A stretch of 61,521 nucleotides of DNA, from positions 1-61,521 of IMG/VR virus record IMGVR_UViG_3300034096_000310; one strand, 5' to 3'. This DNA comes from a virus. Both the position numbers and the translations under genes were made by a program. Numbering within the stretch: the stretch's first letter is position 1; every line of letters begins with the position of its first letter. Below, piece by piece: positions 48,726 to 49,514 of this stretch. The notes below the pieces were generated by a model. It saw only the letters and a list, made by a program, of their open reading frames with translations. It was not told where the DNA came from and made no database searches.

Positions 48726-49370
48726 TTATTTGTTTAGTATTTCTTCTATATCGTAGTAGTAACAATCTCCGTTAGCGCTCACCCACCTGTCACTCTCCGA
48801 CTCCACGCACTCAAGCGATGTGTCTACCTTGAACTCTTTGGGATCAACTGGGAACTTGTTCGTTATGAAGTTAGAGTCCTTCCAATATATCCGATTGTTG
48901 GGTTGGCAAAGTAGGTACCCATCATCCGCCAGTAGAACGTGACCGCACTTATAATCCGTCGGCTCGTCTGAGTACGAATTGTTAAACCAATCCACGGTGA
49001 ATAGATAGGTGGCCCAAACAGAAGTCTTGTCCTTGAGGATAACCTTGCACCTCTTCTCCGCTAGATACATGTACTCAATGGCGCTTACGTTCTCACTAAA
49101 GCAATCCCATAGTTGCTTGAAGTCACTGGGGATGTCGGCGGTCGGTTCGTGGTAGAATAGTTCCGAGATAGGGACCCTACTTCTGAGCATCCCGTAGTCC
49201 GTCATAATGTGGAACGTCAGGATCTTACCACTGATGCTTTGAATAGCGAAGGCATAGCAGTTGTCATACACTTCTTTATCTGCCTCGTTCTTTGTCAGCC
49301 AGCTCCGCCTAACCTTTAGCTTTAGGTTAGGGATGTTTACGTTCAGTACGTTTGACTCGTGTGTTATCAT
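48726..49370 (-). CDS. Hypothetical protein
   Basis: 214 residues, beta-rich and aromatic, acidic, soluble. Contains GKILTFHIMTDYGMLRSRVP and YKCGHVLLADDGYLLCQPNN. No family recognised. Its leader, 49371-49514, holds two tRNA-like folds. Confidence 0.72.
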   Translation of the reverse strand: MITHESNVLNVNIPNLKLKVRRSWLTKNEADKEVYDNCYAFAIQSISGKILTFHIMTDYGMLRSRVPISELFYHEPTADIPSDFKQLWDCFSENVSAIEYMYLAEKRCKVILKDKTSVWATYLFTVDWFNNSYSDEPTDYKCGHVLLADDGYLLCQPNNRIYWKDSNFITNKFPVDPKEFKVDTSLECVESESDRWVSANGDCYYYDIEEILNK

Positions 49371-49384
49371 GTGTTAATATTTTG

Positions 49385-49452
49385 CACTCAGGGCGGGTCC
49401 TGCCCCCGCATCTCTCACCTTGGTGAGCGCTTTACTTTAAGCTACCTGAGTG
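49385..49452 (-). ncRNA. tRNA-shaped cloverleaf without anticodon
   Basis: Read on the minus strand from 49452: CACTCAGG (acceptor), TA, D-stem GCTT/AAGC (49442-49439, 49432-49429), one base, anticodon-type stem CTCAC/GTGAG (49427-49423, 49418-49414) with a 4-base loop CAAG, four variable bases, T-stem GCGGG/CCCGC (49409-49405, 49397-49393) with a 7-base loop, then CCTGAGTG (49392-49385). All stems pair perfectly in tRNA order and nearly tRNA spacing. A 4-base loop cannot hold an anticodon and the T-loop is GGCAGGA, not TTCRANY, so it should not decode. It lies in the leader of the gene starting at 49370. Confidence 0.65.
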
Positions 49453-49454
49453 AT

Positions 49455-49508
49455 CCCGGGTGTTTCGAACTAAGACCAAAACCCCTTTTAATAATAGCTC
49501 TACCCGGG
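49455..49508 (-). ncRNA. Second tRNA-like fold, 54 nt
   Basis: On the minus strand CCCGGGT (49508-49502) pairs with ACCCGGG (49461-49455). Between them lie AAAA-GGGG-TTTT and, next to the 3' strand of the closing stem, GTTCGAAAC, similar to a T-loop. It directly precedes the cloverleaf at 49385-49452. Confidence 0.45.
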
Positions 49509-49514
49509 AATGTT

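Follow-up and report, generated by a model that had tools for sequence, protein, structure and literature searches.

The DNA analysed here, called the window throughout, is the whole of the 61.5-kb virus record IMGVR_UViG_3300034096_000310 of IMG/VR (61,521 nucleotides, nt). The terminase of this virus is 28-32% related to those of Flavobacterium phages and other Bacteroidota phages and to that of the spring-water podovirus genome MW202828, and its host is probably a bacterium of the Bacteroidota type. Our subject is a small tRNA-like element on the minus strand of the window, which lies between two minus-strand open reading frames (ORFs) and occupies most of the gap between them (Table 1). 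Judged by its sequence, the element is an evolutionarily conserved RNA gene of this virus that looks like a tRNA but has no anticodon.

Table 1. Features at the locus of the tRNA-like element, with positions in the window (bp, base pairs)
Feature	Position	Strand	Evidence or remark
Whole tRNA-like element, C-1 to G73, 68 nt	49385..49452	-	Fold; homologues in G050, G054 and G064
Acceptor, 5' strand ACTCAGG, partner 49386-49392	49445..49451	-	7/7 paired
D arm GCTT-AAAGTA-AAGC, 4-bp stem, 6-nt loop	49429..49442	-	Compensatory pairs in homologues; coupling with T-loop type
Hairpin at anticodon position CTCAC-CAAG-GTGAG, 5 bp, without anticodon; loop at 49419-49422	49414..49427	-	Homologous hairpins
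T arm GCGGG-GGCAGGA-CCCGC, 5-bp stem; non-canonical T-loop at 49398-49404	49393..49409	-	GGCAG T-loop in 15 elements
Acceptor, 3' strand CCTGAGT	49386..49392	-	Stem-by-stem pairing across four copies
G73 and C74, tRNA-type 3' processing signature, CCA not encoded	49384..49385	-	N73/C74 frequencies in the wider family
Downstream gene, PHROG 3704, ATG 14 nt past G73	48726..49370	-	Homologues without element
Upstream gene, weak likeness to DnaA C-terminal helix-turn-helix	49515..49847	-	Pfam Bac_DnaA_C E 0.0003, below cut-off
Hairpin H1 directly upstream, CCCGGGT ... AUUAAAAGGGGUUUUGGU ... ACCCGGG	49454..49509	-	Fold; same apical sequence in G054, G001 and G055

Read on the minus strand from 49452 to 49385, the element is CACTCAGGTAGCTTAAAGTAAAGCGCTCACCAAGGTGAGAGATGCGGGGGCAGGACCCGCCCTGAGTG. 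The earlier note on this DNA had described perfectly paired stems in tRNA order with an 8-bp acceptor, and this is borne out: stems of 7, 4, 5 and 5 bp follow each other as in a tRNA, 21 of the 21 core pairs are Watson-Crick pairs, and an extra C-1:G73 pair extends the acceptor ACTCAGG/CCTGAGT to 8 bp. Its loops CAAG (4 nt, at the anticodon position) and GGCAGGA (T arm) had also been given correctly, as they read on this strand. Between the stems lie U8 and A9, G26, and a variable region of 4 nt (AGAT). The D-loop AAAGTA contains A14 and one G, and the G18G19 pair of bases of a normal tRNA is absent. Folding the minus strand for minimum free energy gives precisely this cloverleaf (-31.0 kcal/mol, z -4.35, equalled by 0 of 200 shuffles). 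Because the anticodon arm is a capped hairpin only, the element cannot decode.

ARAGORN called no tRNA in the window, a scan of the window with Rfam gave nothing above gathering score, and the tRNA model RF00005 matched neither the element nor its three homologues described below even at permissive thresholds. A canonical T-loop TTCRANY facing a D-loop G18G19 is not present. The first lead came from a permissive Rfam scan, in which the element aligned to the full length of the skipping-rope model (RF02924) with 24.0 bits (E 0.0017 on 301 nt) and had in common with it the cloverleaf layout and a GAGAUG stretch with its flanking stem. However, this score is below the gathering score of 36.7 bits, the three homologues are unmatched at E up to 1 and their loci up to E 5, GAGAUG is not kept in the homologues (GAGGTG, GAGATA), and a chance match of 23 bits lies inside a coding region of another phage. 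It is thus scarcely credible that the element is a divergent skipping-rope RNA. The identity was dropped, the likeness being that of two cloverleaves, and two pattern scans based on it had returned only chance matches and ordinary tRNAs. The pseudoknot of skipping-rope is supported by covariation according to PMC7779021; between the short D-loop and the T-loop of our element no clear complementarity was seen, the exact pairing positions of that pseudoknot not being at hand.

When phage genomes encoding a related terminase were searched with the intergenic DNA, three homologues came up, in G050 (84% identity), G054 (87%), and G064 (74%). Their hairpins at the anticodon position (CACAC-TGAG-GTGTG, CTTAC-TAAT-GTAAG, and TCATC-ATTGTA-GGTGA, respectively) carry loops of 4, 4, and 6 nt. 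Thus, a 7-nt loop with an anticodon is absent from the window element and its direct homologues alike; it appears only in relatives farther out in the superfamily. The odd T-loop of the window recurs in all three. When the four copies are parsed stem by stem, 83 of 84 cells are paired, and each of the four stems contains pairs changed on both sides. For example, the second acceptor pair is C-G in the window and G-C in the homologues, and the D stem shows the compensatory pairs T-A/C-G and T-A/G-C. Among the three copies of equal length, 98.4% of the cells are paired and five pairs are changed on both sides, a value reached by 2 of 500 shuffles, while slid controls gave 0-1. The longer G064 copy was misaligned by MAFFT, so that the pair counts including it come from stems parsed by hand, and all these counts rest on few sequences (four or three), though from independent sites. 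Because of the homologues with their compensatory changes the element is far beyond what chance would give, and the pairing of the stems, as far as sequences can tell, reflects selection on structure and not decay. The earlier suggestion that the stems were kept while the decoding part was lost is therefore supported by stems that covary in direct homologues.

The element could still be a decaying tRNA pseudogene or the leftover of an insertion, without function now. The wider family is derived from tRNAs, with some relatives scoring as tRNA in Rfam and some having a 7-nt anticodon loop, and presence and absence differ among related phages. However, it is hard to imagine how drift would give compensation in all stems, a shared odd T-loop at unrelated sites, and the coupling of D-loop and T-loop described below, and the compensatory changes also argue against the homologues being very recent copies. 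We regard this explanation as very unlikely.

The homologues do not share their surroundings. The G050 copy lies ahead of an 87-residue ORF, the G054 copy between a 331-residue ORF (YqaJ-exonuclease-like by eye) and a 128-residue ORF, and the G064 copy has no nearby start codon after it. Their gene neighbours are mutually unrelated and the sites non-homologous. At the site corresponding to that of G054, G001 and G055 have hairpin H1 and a terminator-like hairpin without the tRNA-like element, so that the element is gained or lost as a unit. Such a pattern would also fit inverted repeats acting at the level of the DNA, in recombination, mobility or replication, that merely resemble a tRNA. The acceptor and T stems are inverted repeats, the sites are non-homologous, one site is found with and without the element, and a tyrosine recombinase is encoded 1.6 kb from the window copy. 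This explanation is nevertheless improbable, as the coupling of the loops, N73, C74 and U-1, the TTCRANT T-loops, and the varied middles of the cloverleaves in the wider family are features of RNA.

With a covariance model built from three copies, further elements were found in related phages that share the acceptor and differ in the middle. A scan of 2.9 million viral contigs for AGTCAGGT-N37-67-T arm-CCTGACT yielded at least 120 stretches, and at least 161 distinct elements were extracted; the family counts given in the following are among the elements listed from this acceptor-pattern scan, all from metagenome contigs. In 84,980 genomes of cellular species the same pattern was found in four stretches only, three in Bacteroidota and one in a Rickettsiaceae assembly, all metagenome-assembled. 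The window element belongs to the family through its compensated acceptor ACUCAGG/CCUGAGU, G73, C74, and missing CCA, and was joined to it by the R1 model. Across the family the anticodon region is absent, capped or exchanged for something else. By a crude parse, 82 of the 161 elements have a hairpin where the anticodon arm would be, 22 of them with 4-nt loops and 12 with 7-nt loops. L529, for example, is canonical except for its anticodon arm (CCCATA-TTGG-TATGGG) and scores 56.8 bits as a tRNA, and sister elements with TTC T-loops exceed the RF00005 cut-off (31-57 bits). ARAGORN missed many of the elements and gave others scattered 'anticodons' of 2-4 nt. The origin of the family from tRNAs is evident from a few members that keep a real anticodon, for example Lys UUU.

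In an alignment of 51 members, 96.6% of the cells are paired and 152 cells are changed on both sides compared to 45 in shuffles, although this alignment was fitted to the covariance model and leans toward it. In addition, the middles are conserved between contigs, forming 21 clusters that comprise 54 of 176 elements, some with stems that covary around fixed loops. In L482, L511, L515, and other clusters the middles are like CTATACTTAAGCAG-N5-AGCTGGGTAA-N5, with constant loops and with stems that compensate from TTGAA/TTCAA to AGCAA/TTGCT. Because middles are conserved in this way, the RNA itself probably matters. None of the named-phage records contains an AGUCAGG element over 80% of its length. 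The closest case is in MW202828, which among named phages is most nearly related to that of the window: we noticed there an unannotated tRNA-like element (MW202828.1, L609, 522-630) with another acceptor, AGTGCAG; L586, from a different phage, has AGTTAGG, and both share a conserved middle. Open-access papers searched describe no such family, though subscription journals could contain a description, and this phage family of non-decoding tRNA look-alikes is apparently large and undescribed.

Nearly all listed elements have TTCRANT T-loops. A dedicated scan for the GGCAG T-loop found 15 contigs, each with a tRNA-like acceptor and T stem, and their D-loops, typically AAAAGTA, AAAGTA or AATGTA, lack the GG by which the D-loop of a normal tRNA touches the T-loop. 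Of 157 elements with a TTC T-loop 147 have this GG, and of 15 with GGCAG 2 have it. Because the GGCAG T-loop is coupled to the loss of the D-loop GG, the tRNA elbow is, on this comparison, under selection. Because U8, A14, A15-U48, and a G facing C56 are all still there in the window copy, it is natural to read its RNA as one that would form a tRNA-like L whose elbow is altered. The usual T-loop modifications would then be impossible because U54 and U55, the targets of the modification enzymes TrmA and TruB, are absent. Six members of the GGCAG subfamily (L535, L598, L599, L600, L605, and L608) share the middle GGGTGA-GC-loop-GCAAAAGACC, which by eye looks like a kink-turn set on a tRNA chassis.

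The ends of the listed elements are those of tRNAs. Position 73 is A in 144 and G in 12 of 161, C74 is found in 159, and position -1 is T in 129. The genuine tRNAs of the same contigs are mostly CCA-less with C74 present, and because they share these flanks the family carries processing ends of the tRNA type. The elements are solitary, with a genuine tRNA within 200 nt for 26 of 172, whereas this is the case for 208 of 295 tRNAs. They shun ORFs (overlap in 42 of 168 versus 80% of random positions) and lie mostly between codirectional genes. This placement is expected if the cloverleaf were only a cutting site in a polycistronic mRNA, with RNase P and RNase Z giving the downstream genes a short, clean 5' end and the excised RNA being waste. 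It is also consistent with the preserved parts (acceptor, T arm, N73, and C74), which are what RNase P and RNase Z recognise, with the window copy ending 14 nt ahead of an ATG, and with 46 of 110 elements ending at most 40 nt before a codirectional ATG compared to 20 of 169 genuine tRNAs (p 2e-8). However, this strong preference was dropped as main evidence, because under a uniform null within the gaps the excess becomes small (42 of 101 observed, 33.9 expected, p 0.012). Solitary genuine tRNAs are not clearly different (8 of 28), and in the GGCAG subfamily there is no excess (3 of 11 versus 2.9 expected). Moreover, conserved middles are superfluous for a mere cutting site, and homologues of the downstream gene manage without the element: in all six homologues of the PHROG 3704 gene in which the upstream DNA was inspected, there is other sequence and no such element. 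Together with RNA homologues lying beside unrelated genes, this also contradicts the earlier proposal of a processing signal in the leader of that gene. The cutting site is the main rival to the reading that we prefer, but we consider it rather unlikely.

Because the middles are conserved between contigs, we prefer a trans-acting mimic to a pure cutting site. We hold it about evenly probable that the element is a phage-encoded, non-decoding tRNA mimic, which would be cut out by the enzymes of tRNA maturation and act as a stable RNA in trans. Transcription would run the same way as that of the genes on either side, and the RNA would fold into the L with the alternative D-loop/T-loop elbow and be excised by the tRNA enzymes of the host, RNase P at the 5' end and RNase Z past N73, with CCA added later. 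The product, about 70 nt long and stable, would be treated as a tRNA by proteins reading the acceptor end and the elbow. Just as an example, it could titrate a host enzyme that attacks tRNAs. A decoy for enzymes reading the acceptor end or elbow is possible, and these are better candidates than anticodon nucleases, for which the earlier note had considered a decoy; this is unlikely because the loop that those enzymes cut is absent. Cas12a3 is reported to cut tRNA tails as phage defence (PMC12851939), which is a lead and not evidence here.

Several points weigh against the mimic. The opposite (plus) strand forms a nearly equally good fold (-29.0 kcal/mol, z -3.96), as any perfect hairpin set would do; the minus strand was assigned on account of the gene direction, the homologues, and loops of the tRNA type. 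The part given to RNase P and RNase Z is deduced from the flanking bases only, and transcription of the element is likewise presumed. The acceptor AGUCAGG/CCUGACU was the search term, and its constancy comes partly from this choice. The p value for the coupling of the loops (Fisher 9e-12) ignores relatedness, and seven GGCAG members resemble one lineage. Lastly, a strong terminator-like hairpin with a T run (AGACCAGTTTCGGCTGGTCTTTTTT) directly precedes the element in G054 (L370 1566-1645), and for this reason the element might need its own promoter there. For the family as a whole it could be, and we suggest this tentatively, that Bacteroidota phages carry an entire class of small RNAs on a tRNA chassis, in which the ends and elbow are kept to let the tRNA enzymes of the host process and shield the RNA, and a cap or interchangeable, conserved RNA modules take the place of the anticodon end. 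In the subfamily of the window the elbow would have been rebuilt (GGCAG T-loop and matched D-loop), possibly to evade T-loop modification or tRNA-targeting defence.

Compared to canonical tRNAs (RF00005, including those of phages), the element has the same order of the cloverleaf, stem lengths, U8/A14, D-loop G facing C56, R73, and C74, but differs in its 4-nt loop without anticodon, its GGCAGGA without U54/U55, and its D-loop without GG. A tRNA-type top half processed by tRNA enzymes without a decoding anticodon is known from tmRNA, the bacterial Y RNA YrlA, and the mammalian mascRNA. Unlike these, the element stands alone with 68 nt, has a swapped elbow, neither an mRNA nor a Y-RNA domain, and no match in Rfam. 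The tRNA region of phage T4 encodes stable non-tRNA RNAs (species 1 and 2, or RNA C and D), which are products of tRNA enzymes. They are small phage RNAs tied to tRNA processing like the putative RNA of the window, although set beside it by description only and belonging to different hosts and different phages. In an isolated Bacteroidota phage, Tenacibaculum phage pT24, BPT24_228 and BPT24_230 (tRNA-Undet) are tRNA-like genes without an assigned amino acid. These two genes (L611, LC168164.1, 90-168 and 457-535) are nearly identical to each other and have an odd anticodon arm, but their acceptor is another one and their D- and T-loops are canonical, so that they are candidate relatives at most. 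Nonetheless, pT24 would be a culturable system for non-decoding phage tRNAs.

Codon supply and resistance to anticodon nucleases are the usual explanations for tRNA genes in phages, and a large set of non-decoding tRNA-like genes fits neither. Such genes would provide a testable instance of viral tRNA mimicry in bacteria, and the swap of T-loop and D-loop would serve as a natural experiment on how an elbow can be constructed and on the enzymes that require it. Because tRNA finders miss such genes or put out meaningless anticodons, the tRNA counts and predicted isotypes of phages may be wrong in the affected groups.

Concerning the neighbours of the element, the downstream gene is widespread (411 relatives), and a search of cellular genomes with its protein gave no match, as did a search of viral contigs with the upstream DnaA-like protein. 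Hairpin H1 is counted as a neighbour of the tRNA-like element and not as a component because it is found both with and without it. In four related phages its apical TTATTAA(C)AAAAGGGGTTTTGG is constant while the lower stem is wholly different, and the copies outside the window lie at about 1575-1630 in L370 and at about 1490-1535 in L372 and L373. On another phage contig (L480, 7609-8193, minus strand) a match to a group I intron model immediately adjoins a tmRNA match.
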